A stretch of DNA of 64,000 bases from Loktanella atrilutea (GTDB lineage: Bacteria > Pseudomonadota > Alphaproteobacteria > Rhodobacterales > Rhodobacteraceae), in NCBI RefSeq assembly GCF_900128995.1, contig NZ_FQUE01000006.1:62001-126000 (forward strand), in the 5' to 3' direction. The notes under the pieces were generated by a model. The model saw only the letters and a program-made list of their open reading frames with translations, searched no databases and was not told where the DNA came from. Below are positions 9,640-24,878 of the stretch, piece by piece (position 1 is the stretch's first letter; each line of letters begins with the position of its first letter). The translations under genes and the position numbers were made by a program.

Positions 9640-10611
9640 ATGCGCGCGTTTCAGGTTCAATCCTTCACCGCTCCACCGCAGATCGTGACCTGTCCCGTCC
9701 CCGTCCCCGGACCGGGTGAGGTCGCGCTGCGGATCGGAGCCTGCGGCATCAATTTCGCGGACATGCTGATGGCGCAAGGAAAATATCAGGACACGCCGCC
9801 CCTGCCCTTTACCCTCGGGATGGAGGTCTGCGGCACGGTGACGGCTCTGGGCGACGGGGTGACGACACCCCCCGTGGGGACCCGCGTCTGCGTCTTCGGT
9901 GGTCGGGGCGGCATGGCGGAAACGGGCGTCTTTCCGGCGGTCCTCTGCCGGCCGGTGCCAGACGACATGCCGGATACGGTCGCGGCCGGGTTCCAGGTGG
10001 CCTACGGCACCTCTCACCTCGCACTGACCCGGCGGGCGGGCCTGCGGCGGCGCGAGACCCTTCTGGTGCTGGGCGCGGCGGGTGGCGTCGGGCTGACCGC
10101 GGTCGAGATCGGCAAGGCACTGGGGGCCACTGTGATCGCGGTCGCCCGCGGCGCCGACAAGCTGGAGGTCGCCCGCAAGGCCGGCGCCGACTACCTGATC
10201 GATTCCACCGATGGCGACCTGAAGGCCCGTCTGAAGGCGCTCTGCGCCGGAATCGGTGGCGTCGACGTGGTCTACGACCCGGTCGGCGGCGATGCCTTCA
10301 TGGCGACCCTGTCCGTCTGCAATCCGGAGGCGCGCGTGATCGCGATCGGCTTTGCCAGCGGCACAGTGCCGCAGATCCCGGCCAACATTCTACTGGTCAA
10401 GAATATTTCCGTGATCGGATTTTATTGGGGCGGCTACCTGAAGTTCCACCCGGAGGCGCTGACCGAAAGTCTTGCGGAATTGATGAAATGGTACGCACAG
10501 GGGCTCCTGCATCCCCACATCAGCGAGGTTCTGCCGCTGGACCGCGCGCAGGAGGGGCTCGACCTTATCGCATCGCGCGCGGCGACCGGGAAGGTCGTCA
10601 TCACGCCGTGA
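9640..10611 (+). CDS. NADPH:quinone oxidoreductase, zinc-less MDR family
   Basis: The 323-residue protein has the MDR N-terminal GroES-like domain (PGPGEVALRIGACGINFAD) and a Rossmann fold with GAAGGVGLTAVEIGK near residue 145. The catalytic zinc ligands of alcohol dehydrogenases are missing, as in quinone oxidoreductases and enoyl reductases of this group. It probably reduces quinones or enones with NADPH in the cytosol. It stands alone between two intergenic regions, so it may have its own promoter. Confidence 0.88.
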   Translation: MRAFQVQSFTAPPQIVTCPVPVPGPGEVALRIGACGINFADMLMAQGKYQDTPPLPFTLGMEVCGTVTALGDGVTTPPVGTRVCVFGGRGGMAETGVFPAVLCRPVPDDMPDTVAAGFQVAYGTSHLALTRRAGLRRRETLLVLGAAGGVGLTAVEIGKALGATVIAVARGADKLEVARKAGADYLIDSTDGDLKARLKALCAGIGGVDVVYDPVGGDAFMATLSVCNPEARVIAIGFASGTVPQIPANILLVKNISVIGFYWGGYLKFHPEALTESLAELMKWYAQGLLHPHISEVLPLDRAQEGLDLIASRAATGKVVITP

Positions 10612-10666
10612 CCCTTGCGGCACCCGAAAGATGATGCGGCAAGCGGTCTTCGGCATGCGGCGGCCT

Positions 10667-10696
10667 CTTGATATGCAAGGCATCCGTCCCGATATT
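10667..10696 (+). promoter_or_regulatory. Promoter with heat-shock (RpoH-like) features upstream of the Bax-inhibitor-1 gene
   Basis: CTTGATA at 10667-10673 and CCCGATATT at 10688-10696 are separated by 14 bases. This resembles the sigma-32 pattern CTTGAAA-N(11-16)-CCCCATNT with one mismatch in each box. The same bases can be read as a sigma-70 promoter (TTGATA-17-GATATT). The start point would lie about 40 bases before the ATG at 10746. Confidence 0.5.
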
Positions 10697-10745
10697 GGGC
10701 GCAAGCGTCGGACGACTGGCGCGCATTTTTCTAACGGAGGTCCTG

Positions 10746-11516
10746 ATGGCTGAATATCAAACGATCCGGACCACGGGCACTGTCCGTGGCGCGGCAATCG
10801 ACGAAGGGCTGCGCGCCCATATGAACAAGGTCTACGGCATCATGTCGGTCGGCATGCTGATCACGGCGGCTGCCGCATGGGCGATCTCGGGCCTTGCCCT
10901 GTCCCCCGTGCCGACCGGCGCACAGATCGGTGCCAATACCTACCTGACCGACTTCGGCGTCCTGCTGTACACCAGCCCGCTGAAATGGGTCGTCATGTTC
11001 GCGCCGCTCGCGATGGTGTTCGCCATGGGAGCCATGATCAACAAGTTGTCGGTCGCCGGCGCGCAGACGTTCTTCTACGCCTTCGCGGCGCTGATGGGCC
11101 TGTCGCTGTCGTGGATCTTCGCGGTCTATACCGGCTTCTCGATCATTCAGGTCTTCCTGATCACCGCCGTGTCCTTTGCGGGCCTGTCGCTTTACGGCTA
11201 CACCACGAAGAAGGACATCAGCGGCTGGGGCAGCTTCCTGATCATGGGCGTGATCGGTCTGATCGTCGCCTCGATCGTGAACATCTTCCTCGGTTCGCCC
11301 GTCGTGCAACTGGCGATCTCGGCCATCGGCGTGCTGATCTTCGCGGGCCTGACCGCCTATGACACGCAGAAGATCAAGACCGACTACATCTCGCACGCCG
11401 CCCATGGCGATGCGGAGTGGCTGGGCAAGTCGGCGATCATGGGGGCGCTGAACCTCTACCTCGACTTCATCAACATGTTCATGTTCATGCTGCAACTGTT
11501 CGGCAACCGCGAATAA
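10746..11516 (+). CDS. Bax inhibitor-1 / YccA family membrane protein
   Basis: The 256-residue product begins MAEYQTIRTTGTVRGAAID after a GGAGG at 10736-10740 and has about seven membrane helices. It ends with the charged NLYLDFINMFMFMLQLFG region typical of the family. E. coli YccA is a substrate and modulator of the FtsH protease. Others act in Ca2+ leak or stress, and the exact function here is unknown. The upstream promoter has RpoH-like boxes, which would fit a link to FtsH and heat stress. A strong terminator follows. Confidence 0.92.
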   Translation: MAEYQTIRTTGTVRGAAIDEGLRAHMNKVYGIMSVGMLITAAAAWAISGLALSPVPTGAQIGANTYLTDFGVLLYTSPLKWVVMFAPLAMVFAMGAMINKLSVAGAQTFFYAFAALMGLSLSWIFAVYTGFSIIQVFLITAVSFAGLSLYGYTTKKDISGWGSFLIMGVIGLIVASIVNIFLGSPVVQLAISAIGVLIFAGLTAYDTQKIKTDYISHAAHGDAEWLGKSAIMGALNLYLDFINMFMFMLQLFGNRE

Positions 11517-18836: not shown

Positions 18837-18923
18837 GCTAATATCGGCAGGATGGACGCTCGCAATGCGGTGCGGTCGCACCTACCTTGTCCCTGACGAT
18901 CCGGAACGAGAGACGACTGCGAC

Positions 18924-19130
18924 ATGGCACGACTGATCCTTTTCTTCGCCCTGCTGACAGGTCTGGCGCTGGCCGCGATGGCGGCACTGGCGGCCCTTCG
19001 TAATCTGAGCGATTCAGAGCACGCGGCGACGCCGGTGACGGGCCTGCCGGGGCCGGTGCGCATGATTTCCTTCGGCTTCATGATCCTGCTGTTGCTGGGT
19101 GTCAGCACCGGTCTGGTCGGAGCGGGCTGA
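18924..19130 (+). CDS. Small membrane protein preceding the XpaC-like gene
   Basis: The 68-residue product has two hydrophobic segments (about 2-24 and 46-66) joined by a short polar loop (LRNLSDSEHAATPV). I do not recognise a family. The stop TGA overlaps the start of the next gene (TGATG), so it is translationally coupled to the XpaC-like gene and belongs to this set. Start ATG is preceded by only a weak ribosome site. Confidence 0.75.
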   Translation: MARLILFFALLTGLALAAMAALAALRNLSDSEHAATPVTGLPGPVRMISFGFMILLLLGVSTGLVGAG

Positions 19131-19996
19131 TGGCGAAACCCTACGGCGGCAAATACAGCCCCGGTGCCACCGCCGTGCCGGATGCGGGCACGCGGCCGGT
19201 GGTCGATCCGGTGGGCGCGCGGGCGAACCTGATGCTGTTGCCGCCGGTCATCCTGCTGTTCAGGTCCCTGACGGGCGGCCCCGCGCTGCTGGCAACGGGG
19301 CTGGCGGGTGCGGTGGCTTTGGGCCTGGGCGCCTGGCTGCTGCGCGGTGGGCTGCGGGCGGATGCGGCGTGGCGGGCGCGCACGGTGGCACGTCGCCCGC
19401 CTGTGCCGCGCAAGATCCTCGCTGCGCTGCTGACTGGCGCCGGTGTGGCGCTGGCGACAGTCACGGGGGCCGGCCCTGTCGGCTGCGTGGTCTACGGCCT
19501 CGTGGCGATGCTGGCGCATCTGGCGGCCTTCGGCATCGATCCGATGCAGGACAAGCGGGCGGCCGGCGTCGATGCCTTCCAGCAGGACCGCGTCGCGCGC
19601 GTGGTCGAGGAAGCGGAGGCGCTGTTGACCGCGATGTCGTCGCAGGCCTCCCGACTGGACGACCGGCCCCTGCAGGCCCGCGTTGCCGCCTTCCAGACGA
19701 CGGCGCGCCGCATGATCGATACGGTCGAGGAAGATCCGCGCGATCTGACCGGCGCGCGGAAGTATCTGGGCGTCTATCTGCAGGGTGCCCGCGACGCGAC
19801 GGAGAAATACGCCGATGTCGCGCTGCGCGGTGACGCACCGGATGCGCGCGATGACTACATGGCGCTGCTGGACGATCTGGATCGGAACTTTGCCGCCCAC
19901 ACGACACGTTTGTTACGTGATGACCGCAGTGATATGGATATCGAAATCAAGGTGCTTCGCGACCGGTTGGCGCGGGACGGCATCGCAGACGAGTAG
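19130..19996 (+). CDS. XpaC-like (5-bromo-4-chloroindolyl phosphate hydrolysis family) membrane protein
   Basis: The 288-residue protein has a polar N-terminus, hydrophobic hairpins at about 32-75 and 97-125, and a helical C-terminal region (RVARVVEEAEALLTAM ...). This layout matches XpaC/PF10112, named after a Bacillus phosphatase phenotype but of unknown biochemistry. In many genomes an xpaC gene stands directly before telA, as here, with a nine-base gap. It probably anchors a complex at the inner membrane together with the TelA-like protein. Confidence 0.8.
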   Translation: MAKPYGGKYSPGATAVPDAGTRPVVDPVGARANLMLLPPVILLFRSLTGGPALLATGLAGAVALGLGAWLLRGGLRADAAWRARTVARRPPVPRKILAALLTGAGVALATVTGAGPVGCVVYGLVAMLAHLAAFGIDPMQDKRAAGVDAFQQDRVARVVEEAEALLTAMSSQASRLDDRPLQARVAAFQTTARRMIDTVEEDPRDLTGARKYLGVYLQGARDATEKYADVALRGDAPDARDDYMALLDDLDRNFAAHTTRLLRDDRSDMDIEIKVLRDRLARDGIADE

Positions 19997-20005
19997 GACA
20001 GGACA

Positions 20006-21175
20006 ATGGCCGACAAGACCCGCGACCGCGCACAGGCGACCCTTGCCGAGGTCGAGCGCATGACCGCAGTGGTGCTGCCGGAACCTGCCGGCGATGCGGT
20101 GACACTGGAAACCGCCGACCGGTCCACCAGCGAGGCGATCACCCGCCGCATGGCGGAGATCGACCTGACCGATACCAATTCCATCGTGAAGTTCGGCACG
20201 GCGGCGCAGTCGGGCCTGCAGCAAATCTCTCAGGACATGCTGGCCGGCGTACGCAACAAGGACGTGGGGCCGGCGGGCGATTCCCTGCGCAGTATCGTCA
20301 GCACGATCCGCGGCTTTTCGGCGAACGAGTTGAACCCCGAAGCCAAGCGCGGGTGGTTCGACAAGCTGCTGGGGCGTGCCACCCCCCTGTCGAAGTTCGT
20401 GGCGCGGTTCGAGGATGTGCAGACCCAGATCGACAAGATCACCGACGACCTGCTGGGGCACGAGACGACGCTGATGAAGGATATCGAATCCCTCGACCGA
20501 CTGTATGCGAAGACATTGGCGTTCTACGACGAGCTGGGTCTTTACATTGCCGCAGGCGAAGCGCGTCTGGCCCGCATCGATGCCGAGGAGATCCCCGCCA
20601 AGGAACGCGAGGCCGCCGCCTCGTCCGAGGGCGACGGTGTCATGGAAGCGCAGGAGCTGCGCGACCTGCGCACCGCGCGCGATGATCTGGAACGGCGCGT
20701 CCATGACCTGAAGCTGACGCGACAGGTGACGATGCAGTCCCTGCCCTCGATCCGGCTTGTGCAGGAAAACGACAAGAGTCTTGTCACCAAGATCAACTCT
20801 ACCCTGCTGAACACCGTGCCGCTGTGGGAGAACCAGCTGGCGCAGGCGCTGACGATCCAGCGGTCGGCAGAGGCGGCGGGCGCCGTGCGCGAGGCGAGTG
20901 ATCTGACCAACGACCTGCTGCGTGCCAATGCCAAGAACCTGCGGGATTCGAATACCGCGATCCGGACGGAGGTCGAGCGCGGCGCCTTCGACATCGCGGC
21001 GATTCAGGCGGCGAACGCCGATCTGATCGCCACCATCGACGAAAGCCTTGCCATCGCGGACGAAGGCAAGCGCAAGCGAGCCGCCGCGGAGGAAGAGCTT
21101 CAGCGGATGGAGGGCGACCTGAAGGCCACCCTGTCCGCCGCGAAGTCGCGAACCACTCCGGCGGGGACCGCCTGA
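20006..21175 (+). CDS. TelA-like toxic-anion-resistance protein
   Basis: The 389-residue product lacks a signal or membrane segment. It is largely helical with long coiled-coil-like stretches, as in the TelA family (PF05816). Landmarks are LNPEAKRGWFDKLLG and LRDLRTARDDLERRVHDLKL, then ALTIQRSAEAAGAV. TelA is linked to tellurite and colicin/phage stress tolerance, mechanism unknown. Comparative work by others has placed TelA and XpaC homologues in stress systems related to Ter. It sits between the XpaC-like gene and a DUF2927 gene (three-base gap). Confidence 0.88.
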   Translation: MADKTRDRAQATLAEVERMTAVVLPEPAGDAVTLETADRSTSEAITRRMAEIDLTDTNSIVKFGTAAQSGLQQISQDMLAGVRNKDVGPAGDSLRSIVSTIRGFSANELNPEAKRGWFDKLLGRATPLSKFVARFEDVQTQIDKITDDLLGHETTLMKDIESLDRLYAKTLAFYDELGLYIAAGEARLARIDAEEIPAKEREAAASSEGDGVMEAQELRDLRTARDDLERRVHDLKLTRQVTMQSLPSIRLVQENDKSLVTKINSTLLNTVPLWENQLAQALTIQRSAEAAGAVREASDLTNDLLRANAKNLRDSNTAIRTEVERGAFDIAAIQAANADLIATIDESLAIADEGKRKRAAAEEELQRMEGDLKATLSAAKSRTTPAGTA

Positions 21176-21178
21176 ACC

Positions 21179-22144
21179 ATGGTCCGTCGGGCCCTGTCGC
21201 TGCCGGTCGCGGCCCTGCTGGGCCTGTCGGCCTGCGCCGCACCGCCGCCACCGGTGGTGGCGCCCGTCGCGCCGTCCATCGTGGCGCGCCCGGTCAGCCG
21301 CGTCGTGACCCCGCCGCCGGACGAAGTGCCGGTGCCGAGCGCGGAAAGCGAGGCGCTGCGCATCTATTACCGGCGCCTTCAGAACGACCTGCTGGCGCAG
21401 GGCCTGCTGCGCGGCGATGGAGGTGGACCCGACACGCCCTTTACCGACACCATGCTGGCGCGCGATTTCATCCGCATCGCGCTTTACGATGAATACGTCA
21501 GCGACGGTGACATGCTGCGCGCCGAGGCGACGGAATCGAAGTTGCGGCGCTGGGACCAGCCGGTCCGCATGTCCGTGGAGTTCGGCGCCTCGGTACCGGC
21601 GGCGCAGCGCGACCGTGACCGGACCAGCGTGACAGCCTACGCGGCGCGGCTGTCGCGGATTTCCGGCCTGCCGATCCGCATGACGGACAGCAATCCGAAC
21701 TATCACGTCCTCTTCCTGTCTGAAGACGACCGCGCCGGGTACGAAGCGCGTCTGCGCGAACTGGTGCCGGGCATCGGCGGCAGCAGCCTGCGCGCCATCA
21801 TGAACCTGCCGCGCGATCAGCTGTGCATCGTCATCGCCTTTTCCGAAGGCGGATCGAGCAGCTATGCCAAGGCCATCGCCGTCATCCGTGCGGAGCATCC
21901 GGACCTGCTGACGACGTCCTGCATCCACGAGGAGTTGTCGCAGGGCCTTGGTCTGGCCAACGACAGCCCTCAGGCCCGTCCCTCGATCTTCAACGACGAC
22001 GAGGAATTCGGGCTGCTGACGAACCACGACGAACTGCTGCTGAAGATGCTTTACGACAAGCGTTTCACCACCGGCATGACCGCCGCCGAAGCCGCCCCCA
22101 TCGCCCGCCAGATCGCGACGGAGCTGGTAGGCGGCAACAGCTGA
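21179..22144 (+). CDS. DUF2927 lipoprotein with zincin-like motif
   Basis: The 321-residue protein has a signal with lipobox LGLSAC (C19), a proline-rich linker to about residue 55 and a DUF2927 domain. Near residue 250 it carries CIHEELSQGLGLAND, which recalls the HExxH..G zinc helix of metalloproteases, with S254 in place of the second His. A conserved acidic FNDDEEFGLL follows. It would act in the periplasm, attached to a membrane. Catalytic activity is uncertain. It starts three bases after the telA-like stop. Confidence 0.82.
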   Translation: MVRRALSLPVAALLGLSACAAPPPPVVAPVAPSIVARPVSRVVTPPPDEVPVPSAESEALRIYYRRLQNDLLAQGLLRGDGGGPDTPFTDTMLARDFIRIALYDEYVSDGDMLRAEATESKLRRWDQPVRMSVEFGASVPAAQRDRDRTSVTAYAARLSRISGLPIRMTDSNPNYHVLFLSEDDRAGYEARLRELVPGIGGSSLRAIMNLPRDQLCIVIAFSEGGSSSYAKAIAVIRAEHPDLLTTSCIHEELSQGLGLANDSPQARPSIFNDDEEFGLLTNHDELLLKMLYDKRFTTGMTAAEAAPIARQIATELVGGNS

Positions 22145-22166
22145 CACATTCAAAGGAGGCACGACC

Positions 22167-23273
22167 ATGGGTATTCTCGATTTCCTGTCCGGCCAGTTCA
22201 TCGACGTCATCGCATGGACCGACGATACCCGCGACACCATGGTCTGGCGGTTCGAGCGGCAGGGCCACGAGATCAAGTACGGCGCCAAGCTGACGGTGCG
22301 CGAGGGACAGGCCGCGGTCTTCGTCCACGAAGGACAGCTCGCCGATGTCTTCACCCCCGGCATGTACATGCTGGAAACCAACAACATGCCGATCATGACG
22401 TCGCTGCAGCACTGGGACCACGGGTTCCAGAGCCCGTTCAAGTCGGAAATCTACTTCATCAACACGACGCGGTTCACCGACCTGAAGTGGGGCACCAAGA
22501 ACCCGATCATGCTGCGCGACCCGGAGTTCGGGCTGATCCGCCTGCGCGCCTACGGCACCTATGCGATGAAGGTCAGCGATCCGGCTATCTTCATGCGCGA
22601 GATCGTGGGCACGGACGGCGAATTCACCGCGGACGAGATCAGCTTTCAGGTCCGCAACGTGATCGTGCAGGAATTCTCCCGCGCCATCGCGGCCTCGGGG
22701 ATCCCGGCGCTCGACATGGCGGCGAACACGAAGGATCTAGGCGATCTGGTCGCCAAGGCCATCGACGCCACCATGACCGCCTACGGCATCGACATTCCCG
22801 AGCTTTACATCGAGAACGTGAGCCTGCCGGCGGAGGTCGAGAAGGCGCTCGACGCCCGCACGTCGCGCGGGATCACGGGCAACCTCGACGACCACATGAA
22901 GTGGAAGGCGGCAGAGGCGATGACCCAACCCGGCAGCGCTGCCGGTCAGGCGATGGGCATGGGCATGGGTGCCGGTCTTGGCATGCAGATGGGCAACATG
23001 ATGCAGGGCGGACCATGGGGTCCGGCGCCGCAGGCAGTTCCGGTCGCGGCACCGCCACCGCCGCCCGTGACCGAGAAGGTCTGGCATATCGCCGATGCGG
23101 GTCAGGTGTCCGGCCCGTTCTCGAAGGCCGCGATGGGCCGCAAAGTCACCGACGGCGGTCTGTCCCGCGACAGCATGGTCTGGACGCAGGGACAGGACGG
23201 ATGGAAACCCGCGGTCGACACGGAGCTGGCGCAGCTGTTCACCGTGATGCCGCCCCCGCCCCCGGGCGCCTGA
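22167..23273 (+). CDS. SPFH-domain protein (virion-core-like, YdjI type) with C-terminal GYF_2 domain
   Basis: The 368-residue protein begins with a conserved segment typical of COG4260 (residues 1-50, WTDDTRDTMVWRF) and an SPFH/band-7 domain to about residue 235. A Gly/Met-rich linker (255-302) ends in PPPPP, and a GYF_2 module follows at 305-358 (VWHIADAGQVSGPFS). B. subtilis YdjI, of this type, binds the zinc-ribbon membrane protein YdjG in envelope stress. Here a zinc-ribbon membrane protein is encoded shortly after. An AGGAGG ribosome site precedes the ATG. It is probably a membrane-associated scaffold. Confidence 0.88.
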   Translation: MGILDFLSGQFIDVIAWTDDTRDTMVWRFERQGHEIKYGAKLTVREGQAAVFVHEGQLADVFTPGMYMLETNNMPIMTSLQHWDHGFQSPFKSEIYFINTTRFTDLKWGTKNPIMLRDPEFGLIRLRAYGTYAMKVSDPAIFMREIVGTDGEFTADEISFQVRNVIVQEFSRAIAASGIPALDMAANTKDLGDLVAKAIDATMTAYGIDIPELYIENVSLPAEVEKALDARTSRGITGNLDDHMKWKAAEAMTQPGSAAGQAMGMGMGAGLGMQMGNMMQGGPWGPAPQAVPVAAPPPPPVTEKVWHIADAGQVSGPFSKAAMGRKVTDGGLSRDSMVWTQGQDGWKPAVDTELAQLFTVMPPPPPGA

Positions 23274-23288
23274 GTTTTCGTTGGACGG

Positions 23289-23708
23289 TTGCGACGGTCC
23301 TGTGCTGACGCTGGTCGCGCCCTGCGCACCCGGTTTCGACAGGATCAGACGGGATTCGAGGGTAACACCTGGCACGTCTGGCTGGGCACGGCCGTGCTGC
23401 TGCTGGTGCTGATCCGCATGATCGTGCGCCGCACCCAAGGCGCCCCCGCGCCGGTCAACGACACGCCGCCATTGCTGCACAGGGCGGGCATCTGGGGGCA
23501 TCGGCTGCTGTATCTGCTGATGCTTCTCGTCCCGGTGTTGGGGGCGCTTACCTGGTACTTCAAGATCGGGGCGCTCGGCGATCCCCATGCGGTCGTCGCC
23601 AATGGCCTGATGATCGTGGCGCTGGGCCATGCACTCGTGGCGCTTTACCATCACTATGCGCTGAAGGACGGCACACTGCGGCGCATGACCCGCGGCGCCA
23701 CCGCCTGA
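23289..23708 (+). pseudogene. Truncated cytochrome b561 remnant
   Basis: From about base 23346 the frame encodes three membrane segments with heme-ligand histidines of the cytochrome b561 family: HVWLG, GHRLLYLLMLLVP and LGHALVALYHHYALKDGT. The first helix with its HW ligand is missing. Only 77 bases separate the similarity from the stop of the SPFH gene, too few to encode it. No ATG precedes the similarity; the best start is a TTG. It therefore looks like a 5'-deleted remnant, although a short membrane protein might still be made. It lies between two genes of the stress module. Confidence 0.7.
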
Positions 23709-23777
23709 ACGGTGCTGGTGTCCCGCGCGGCCCCCCGCTATCCCTTGGGCTGACCGTCCCCCCAGCCCGAGGGCCCG

Positions 23778-24878
23778 ATGCCGACCGACGCCGCCCAGAC
23801 CGAACACCGTTTCCCCTGCGACACCTGCGGATCGGACCTGCGCTTCGATCCGGCGGCAGGCCAGTTGGTATGCGACCATTGCGGCAATACCGAGTCGATC
23901 GGCAATGCGGCGGGTCCCTTCGCCACCGTGGCCGAGCTGGATTTTCGGCAGGCCCTGAACGCCGCCCTGCCCGAGGCCGAGATCGAGGAGACCCGTGTCC
24001 AGTCCTGCCCCAACTGCGGCGCACAGTTCGAGCTGCAGGGTGACACCCACGCCGCCGAATGCCCCTTCTGCGCGACGCCGGTCGTCACCGGTACCGGCAC
24101 CCACCGCCATATCAAGCCGCGCGGCCTTCTTCCCTTTGCGCTGGACCAGTCCCGCGCGCGGGACGCGATGACCGACTGGCTGGGCAGCCTGTGGTTCGCG
24201 CCGAACGGTCTGACCGATTATGCCCGCAAGGGCCGGGCGATGGACGGCATCTACGTGCCCTACTGGACCTTCGACGCCCAGACCCAAAGCGCCTACACCG
24301 GCCAGCGCGGCACCTATTACTACACCACCCACACCGTCATGCGTGACGGCAAGCCGCACACGGTCCAGCAGCGCCATACCCGCTGGCGCGGCGTGTCGGG
24401 CCGCGTGCAGCGGTTCTTCGACGATGTGCTGGTCCTCGCGTCCCACAGCCTGCCAAAGCAGTATACCGACGGGCTGGAACCCTGGGACCTGTCGGAACTG
24501 GAGCCTTACCAGCCGCAATACCTCGCCGGTTTCCGGGCTGAAGGCTATCAGGTCGAGCTGCAGGACGGCTTTGCCGAGGCACGCGGTTACATGGACCGGA
24601 TGATCCTGCGCGACGTGCGTTTCGATATCGGCGGCGACGAGCAGCGGGTGACGGACGTGCAGACGCAGGTTTCCGCCGTGACCTTCAAACATATCCTGCT
24701 GCCGGTCTGGCTGGCCGCCTACAAGTACAATGGGCAGACCTACCGCTTCGTCGTCAACGGCCGGACCGGGCGTGTGCAGGGCGAGAGGCCTTACTCCAAA
24801 TGGAAGATCGGCTTCGCCGTCCTCCTCGGGCTGGTGATTGCGCTAACGGTCGGTTATTTCTACGCGATGAGCCAATGA
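23778..24878 (+). CDS. Zinc-ribbon membrane protein (primosomal N'-like annotation in relatives)
   Basis: The 366-residue product has two treble-clef/zinc-ribbon units: C14-C17-C32-C35 and C77-C80-C95-C98. A beta-rich middle region follows (YVPYWTFDAQTQSAYTG, repeats of YYYTTHTVM type), with a single C-terminal membrane helix at about 345-363. Homologues are often named TFIIB-type zinc-ribbon or primosomal protein N', but nothing supports a role in replication. Topology (zinc ribbons in the cytosol, C-terminal anchor) and its place after the SPFH gene make a YdjG-like partner role likely. Confidence 0.8.
   Translation: MPTDAAQTEHRFPCDTCGSDLRFDPAAGQLVCDHCGNTESIGNAAGPFATVAELDFRQALNAALPEAEIEETRVQSCPNCGAQFELQGDTHAAECPFCATPVVTGTGTHRHIKPRGLLPFALDQSRARDAMTDWLGSLWFAPNGLTDYARKGRAMDGIYVPYWTFDAQTQSAYTGQRGTYYYTTHTVMRDGKPHTVQQRHTRWRGVSGRVQRFFDDVLVLASHSLPKQYTDGLEPWDLSELEPYQPQYLAGFRAEGYQVELQDGFAEARGYMDRMILRDVRFDIGGDEQRVTDVQTQVSAVTFKHILLPVWLAAYKYNGQTYRFVVNGRTGRVQGERPYSKWKIGFAVLLGLVIALTVGYFYAMSQ

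Follow-up and report, generated by a model that had tools for sequence, protein, structure and literature searches.

A conserved XpaC-TelA-DUF2927-SPFH-zinc-ribbon operon of Rhodobacteraceae, a putative submembrane scaffold with a metzincin-like lipoprotein

Analysis of a 64,000-nt stretch of the Loktanella atrilutea genome (contig NZ_FQUE01000006.1; hereafter the window, to whose whole length all positions refer) revealed that the genes for an XpaC protein, a TelA protein, a predicted DUF2927 lipoprotein, an SPFH protein and a double-zinc-ribbon membrane protein (ZnR), located within positions 18924-24878, form one conserved unit. With a probability of roughly 0.6, these five genes and the small gene p68 that precedes them constitute an operon for a submembrane scaffold that keeps the inner membrane intact, or repairs it, when the envelope is under stress. 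A first-pass annotation of the same DNA had proposed a possible membrane-stress module here; its observation was right and indeed understated. The module reading holds, the stress tie is as yet unproven, and the functional account is what we infer from the data below. Every gene it named was found to be open at the positions given in Table 1. The five genes from p68 to that of the SPFH protein are, as it had described, co-directional and tightly spaced (gaps of -1, 9, 3 and 22 nt), and a gap of 504 nt, which contains a cytochrome b561 open reading frame (ORF), separates the SPFH gene from ZnR.

Table 1. Features of the window, with Pfam E-values where a family was matched; membrane helices were predicted by simple hydropathy.
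Feature	Position	Strand	Details
Two-box promoter-like element	18856..18888	+	boxes 18856-18865 and 18881-18888, 15 nt apart
p68	18924..19130	+	68 aa; two predicted membrane helices
XpaC	19130..19996	+	PF10112, E 1.2e-26; three predicted membrane helices, N-terminal half
TelA	20006..21175	+	PF05816, E 7.3e-108; zero predicted membrane helices
DUF2927	21179..22144	+	PF11150, E 9.8e-64; predicted lipoprotein; matrixin-like metzincin fold (model)
Lipobox-like C19 of DUF2927	21233..21235	+	in 32/32 aligned cluster members
Replaced zinc motif of DUF2927	21929..21964	+	E251-E252-x-x-Q255-x-x-G258-x-x-N261-D262
SPFH protein	22167..23273	+	Band_7_1/PF13421, E 6.1e-101; C-terminal GYF_2/PF14237, E 5.4e-17; zero predicted membrane helices
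GYF_2 domain of SPFH protein	23082..23219	+	residues 306-351; E 5.4e-17
C-terminal PPPPP of SPFH protein	23250..23264	+	residues 362-366
Cytochrome b561 ORF, truncated	23289..23708	+	Pfam b561; 139 aa
ZnR	23778..24878	+	Zn_ribbon_RRN7, E 3.3e-8; predicted C-terminal membrane helix, residues 344-362

The conservation of the gene set was assessed in 61 genomes searched with PF13421 and PF05816, namely the window's own genome (G000), eight from its genus, a further 28 from the family and 24 from the class (G and L labels denote genomes and fetched loci, respectively). The family set thus comprises 37 genomes of 29 genera. The regions around the matches were retrieved and searched with profiles built on the window proteins, and all counts are of profile matches. 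Strong SPFH and TelA matches occur together in 34 of the 37 family genomes, and the row XpaC-TelA-DUF2927-SPFH-ZnR is found on one strand and in that order in 27, a count which takes in G015, where a contig end cuts ZnR, and G020, where ZnR lies in two frames. The remaining cases are varied. The row is cut at the SPFH gene by contig ends in G028 and G035, ZnR was not seen within the 2.6 kb left on the contig of G032, XpaC was not recognised in G030, and G022 has the row without DUF2927. In G012 the genes are split two and two, with XpaC and TelA away from SPFH and ZnR, and in G025 XpaC and TelA lie some 37 kb from DUF2927, SPFH and ZnR; since these splits fall at submodule borders, we count them in favour of the scaffold. 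In G020 itself (L052, about 10034-11181), the neighbours of the two-frame ZnR gene look intact. The complete row was also found in three further family genomes from a phylum sample (G390, G251 and G399).

A scan of genome_contigs with the ZnR alignment gave at least 590 matching stretches. The titles of the best 80, a choice that favours close relatives, almost all name a Rhodobacterales genus or a Rhodobacteraceae bin. Twelve of these loci are too short to assess; among the 68 in which 6.5 kb or more precede ZnR, all four partners are present in 67, the exception being L132 (Rhodosalinus), which has SPFH only. The neighbour count across relatives that the first-pass annotation had called for hence shows a single gene set and not scattered genes. 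One locus, L120, carries the cluster under the title Enemella evansiae (Actinomycetota by taxonomy) and is probably a mislabelled record.

The association extends beyond the family. Of 142 genomes drawn evenly from the class, six have a ZnR-family match (E<=1e-15), 11 a TelA match (E<=1e-10) and seven a strong Band_7_1 match (E below 1e-70); all six ZnR genomes fall within both other groups, and the genes adjoin in all six. The association is far beyond chance, with hypergeometric probabilities of 4.5e-8 for ZnR with TelA and 6.8e-10 for ZnR with Band_7_1, values which ignore kinship and treat as independent genomes that are not. Two of the six (G000 and G061) belong to the family; the others (G093, G100, G153 and G167) represent four families besides this one and possess XpaC-TelA-SPFH-ZnR with no DUF2927 in the row, the DUF2927 genes of G100 sitting on other contigs. 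Indeed, DUF2927 within the row was seen only in Rhodobacteraceae genomes. In G040 the order is reversed, TelA then XpaC, with no SPFH gene nearby. G100 also harbours, outside its cluster, a second TelA match (G100:C289:1411-2385) with an in-frame TAG that outscores the cluster copy.

Across a phylum sample of 299 genomes, all sampling being within Pseudomonadota, Band_7_1 was matched at E<=1e-20 in 35, of which 19 are outside the class. Among 16 of these 19 whose stretches were fetched, the SPFH gene adjoins a ZnR of over 300 bits in nine; six have only weak zinc-ribbon matches (20-32 bits) beside SPFH, and one is cut at a contig end. None of the 16 stretches contains TelA, XpaC or DUF2927. 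SPFH-ZnR is on this reading the most widespread and probably the oldest pair, and the distribution, read directly and not from a tree, suggests a stepwise history in which XpaC-TelA joined in Alphaproteobacteria and DUF2927 was added in the family Rhodobacteraceae. A different kind of zinc-ribbon-like ORF was observed beside SPFH in L185 (G387).

Both halves of this operon have counterparts in Firmicutes. The pspA-ydjGHI operon of Bacillus subtilis, a species in which PF13421 also finds matches, encodes a YdjI-type soluble Band_7_1 SPFH protein with a double-zinc-ribbon membrane protein, as is the case here. YdjI, described as likely soluble, interacts with PspA and depends on YdjG and YdjH to be recruited to the membrane (PMC8581546). 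The resemblance to YdjI/YdjG, partners of PspA, had been pointed out earlier and is borne out here. According to a PSP survey, YdjG joins two zinc ribbons to an NTF2-like domain and has a membrane segment (PMC11237479); ZnR also has two zinc ribbons (Cys 14, 17, 32 and 35, and 77, 80, 95 and 98, making four CxxC pairs) and a membrane helix, together with a large middle domain. By sequence, no convincing relative of ZnR was found among solved structures, only a weak RNA-polymerase zinc-ribbon match (E 0.014). The Bacillus operon differs in having PspA and the TPM-domain protein YdjH, neither of which is part of the Loktanella operon (the TPM family is absent from the nine window proteins scanned, the rest of the genome not having been searched for it), whereas XpaC, TelA and DUF2927 are additions here.

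The second half corresponds to the xpaC-yaaN pair of Bacillus, Listeria and Lactococcus, in which, going by the published gene lists, the same two families lie side by side in the same order. In Bacillus this pair is separate from the ydjGHI operon, whereas here it is joined to SPFH-ZnR, and the joining of the two halves in one operon is independent evidence for a joint action of TelA and SPFH. The sigma-W regulon list includes both xpaC-yaaN and pspA-ydjGHI (PMC3498285). In a Lactococcus transcriptome table from a study of membrane-protein overproduction and CesSR, an XpaC-like gene stands at 10.3-fold and telA1 at 3.4-fold (PMC3139573). The Listeria pair rises slightly under a bacteriocin (log2 about 0.6), and a TelA-gene mutant is cited in the same paper for its nisin sensitivity (PMC12791056). 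TelA is furthermore reported as expressed by Paracoccus in a plastisphere proteome (PMC11962581). Word searches of the main texts found no TelA, XpaC or SPFH in PMC11237479, where Band-7 does occur, and no TelA or XpaC in a second survey (PMC9239133). The first-pass annotation had thought the combination undescribed, and no publication joining TelA/XpaC with SPFH/ZnR was found in the literature searched, most subscription journals lying outside it.

These likenesses lead us to propose how the scaffold may be assembled. ZnR would be tail-anchored and would hold the soluble SPFH protein to the membrane, in the way that YdjG/YdjH dock YdjI, while XpaC (with p68 where present) would anchor the long-helix TelA at the same membrane, such that TelA and SPFH could form one submembrane lattice for which PspA would not be required. 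The XpaC part of this anchoring, also suggested earlier, involves a conserved protein; p68, which had been included with it, is a clade-variable member, present in the genus and patchy elsewhere (profile match in 30 of 80 named loci), to which Pfam, NCBIfam and PADLOC assigned no family. At the place of p68, G010, G027 and G032 (L041, L059 and L063) carry a second XpaC-like protein ahead of XpaC.

One alternative is a flotillin-like housekeeping scaffold, i.e., a constitutive organiser of membrane domains for fluidity or protein sorting with no special stress tie. The stable gene order in most of the family would suit such a role, as would the lowered membrane fluidity of Bacillus upon loss of YdjI (PMC8581546). 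We consider it unlikely, because both Bacillus halves belong to a stress regulon, the XpaC-TelA pairs of Lactococcus and Listeria react when the envelope is challenged, and TelA and SPFH are absent from some family genomes.

GYF domains bind proline-rich motifs, and the SPFH protein of the window carries both elements: a proline-rich linker precedes its GYF_2 domain, and PPPPP is found among the last nine residues in 23 of 27 aligned SPFH proteins. The exceptions are L061, L055 and L047, with broken proline runs, and L068, with no GYF domain. The GYF domain may bind the oligoproline linker and the C-terminal PPPPP, thereby cross-linking SPFH units. By published account the corresponding tail in Bacillus is a zinc ribbon, in contrast to GYF_2 and oligoproline here. 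The SPFH family profile gave a single match among solved chains at E<=0.01, namely 7z3c (Adventurous gliding motility protein X), the match covering the GYF part at E 2.3e-6; this likeness is one of sequence profiles to the GYF_2 tail, which here is fused to an SPFH domain and in 7z3c belongs to a gliding-machinery protein. L068 (G048) encodes an SPFH protein of this family that lacks the GYF domain; the tail it has instead we take, by eye, to be SHOCT-like.

The first-pass annotation had cast DUF2927 as the lipoprotein arm of the module. The signal-peptide-like N-terminal start and the lipobox-like cysteine agree with this, and the predicted fold indicates more than an arm. The structural model (predicted local distance difference test, pLDDT, 90.7) adopts a matrixin-like metzincin fold, resembling MMP-7, MMP-8 and karilysin; a sequence search of solved structures gave no convincing relative, and no publication on DUF2927 was found in the literature searched. 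Where metzincins carry HExxHxxGxxH/D, and matrixins HExxHxxGxxH, the window protein, a predicted lipoprotein within a conserved operon, has EExxQxxGxxND, which in hmmsearch aligns with HELAHGFGFAH of the relative L080. The three aligned histidine places are non-histidine in 31 of 32 cluster members, L040 keeping one, at the second place. Among 23 DUF2927 stretches of the class sample, the exact HExxHxxGxxH/D motif is carried by one, L213, which is identical with the L080 protein, and five have HExxHxxGxxxH; none of these is a cluster copy. DUF2927 thus looks like a degenerate metzincin, a pseudo-metzincin branch beside relatives resembling active zinc proteases. As such, it may bind, without cutting, a periplasmic ligand (a peptide, peptidoglycan or a misplaced protein) and report it or recruit other components.

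Alternatively, DUF2927 could be an enzyme with an unusual E/E/Q/N/D site, which would give the module a periplasmic hydrolase arm and not a pseudo-protease. In its favour, the motif and the residues around it (CxHEExxQxxGLxND...RPSIFNDDxEF) hardly vary in the cluster, a tighter constraint than a mere binding surface would require, and the glutamate at the aligned catalytic position is retained. Such an enzyme seems improbable to us given the near-total absence of the aligned histidines, and we know of no active site of the E/E/Q/N/D type. Two further DUF2927 observations were made. A chromosomal paralogue (L070:6085-7575; G000:C26 about 910384), with an open frame of about 450-630 codons, has the same replaced zinc motif (HEELAQxLGPLND-like) and is present in most family genomes. 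In addition, L192 (G022:C2), from the genome whose cluster is without DUF2927, contains three consecutive same-strand ORFs with weak DUF2927 matches and a common CMREEAxNSxGL motif.

TelA had also been suggested to take the place of PspA. Its AlphaFold2 model, with pLDDT 82.1 and a weak stretch at about residues 300-309, consists entirely of helices, among them a long hairpin (residues 126-205 and 208-300) and a third long helix. The fold matches listed include no ESCRT-III protein, which excludes nothing, and a sequence search of solved structures yielded no convincing relative. An hhalign comparison of TelA with PspA returned a probability of 0.5%, at low power as the PspA alignment held only two sequences. 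PspA (PF04012) is not matched in G000 and is matched in nine of the 37 family genomes; 26 of the 34 genomes with SPFH and TelA, G000 included, have no PspA match. PspA was also considered as a neighbour of SPFH-ZnR in other lineages; a phmmer search of the cluster-locus ORFs with two PspA queries returned only the queries themselves.

Several points weigh against the proposed scaffold. The TelA model matches long-helix bundles in general, and eight of the 34 genomes with SPFH and TelA have PspA as well, either on a different contig or over 150 kb distant; together with the hhalign result, these mean that the replacement of PspA by TelA, as worded, is not supported and stands as an analogy only. 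Three family genomes (G021, G029 and G036) have neither a TelA nor an SPFH match, SPFH is not matched at E<=1e-20 in a further one from the phylum sample (G396), and in G048 TelA lies 129 kb away from the SPFH protein lacking the GYF tail. Moreover, the stress role is carried over from Firmicutes, and if DUF2927 is periplasmic, XpaC, p68 and ZnR would by hydropathy have little that could reach it. A bolder version of the proposal, possible if doubtful, would see in Rhodobacterales a PspA-free repair machine, with TelA and a GYF/polyproline-cross-linked SPFH scaffold, in which a degenerate, lipid-anchored matrixin, DUF2927, serves as periplasmic damage sensor, having arisen from an active exported zinc protease by replacement of all three zinc histidines.

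The name of TelA raises the question as to whether the operon confers resistance to toxic anions or metals, such as tellurite, in the manner of Ter systems. TelA has been proposed to form sub-membrane structures in the Ter reading (PMC7824862), and a Listeria TelA-gene mutant shows a 2-fold tellurite effect, as cited in PMC12791056. The same mutant is 4-fold more sensitive to nisin, the larger effect, and TelA is the sole Ter family among the nine window proteins scanned, which include no TerD, TerC or TerB and in which its partners are SPFH, ZnR and XpaC; we therefore regard this role as highly improbable. An anti-phage defence island, for which the occurrence of TelA in jumbo phages and a proposed role of the Ter system against superinfection (PMC7824862) might speak, is barely credible, as PADLOC assigned none of its families to the seven proteins scanned and the family-wide fixed gene order is unlike that of a defence island.

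A promoter-like element ends 35 nt ahead of p68, and a consensus close to CCCCTAGCAA, 15 nt, CCTAAGTT is found upstream of p68 or XpaC in many loci. The element search was self-trained on its own, related sequences, so that the scores (44 of 68 upstream regions above the shuffle 95% point, 38 above the highest shuffle) are partly circular; their only informative feature is the fixed spacing, which emerged unforced and is exactly 15 nt in 39 of the top 45 of the 68 regions. This common fixed-spacing element supports a single transcription start for the operon and points to no particular sigma factor. A regulon defined by the element was rejected: in the window's own genome the relaxed pattern is matched just once, at the cluster, and a strict form occurs in two of 61 family genomes, once each (G027, at the cluster, and G486).

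The b561 ORF between SPFH and ZnR had been called a remnant, which is borne out by a Pfam match starting at profile position 39 and a missing first membrane helix. Same-genus frames of 174, 166 and 186 codons (L033, L036 and L038) keep this helix, L033, the only one of the three scanned, covering profile positions 1-179; longer copies with this helix are present in G002, G005 and G007. The b561 profile was found in only four of 80 named loci (L083, Loktanella; L086 and L087, Yoonia; L109, Pseudoruegeria), and b561 was rejected as a module part, being a rare insertion that probably lies outside it. By sequence, a different b561-like protein occupies the same slot in G001, G003, G004 and G006, that of G003 (L034) being just above the Pfam cut-off, and G008 has apparent remains of both kinds. 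In the NCBIfam scan of seven proteins the sole match was b561, below cut-off. A PfkB kinase gene lies downstream of ZnR.

The novelty lies in how widespread the operon is and in its probable assembly step by step, as well as in the interpretation of DUF2927 as a pseudo-metzincin; with this, the DUF2927 family gains a predicted fold and an evolutionary reading. The joining of TelA with SPFH makes the long-obscure role of TelA testable. Finally, 28 of the 37 family genomes are without a match to PspA, the textbook membrane-stress effector, and 34 possess SPFH and TelA, mostly in the operon; if the operon does the work of PspA, it would be an envelope-maintenance system of a major bacterial group.

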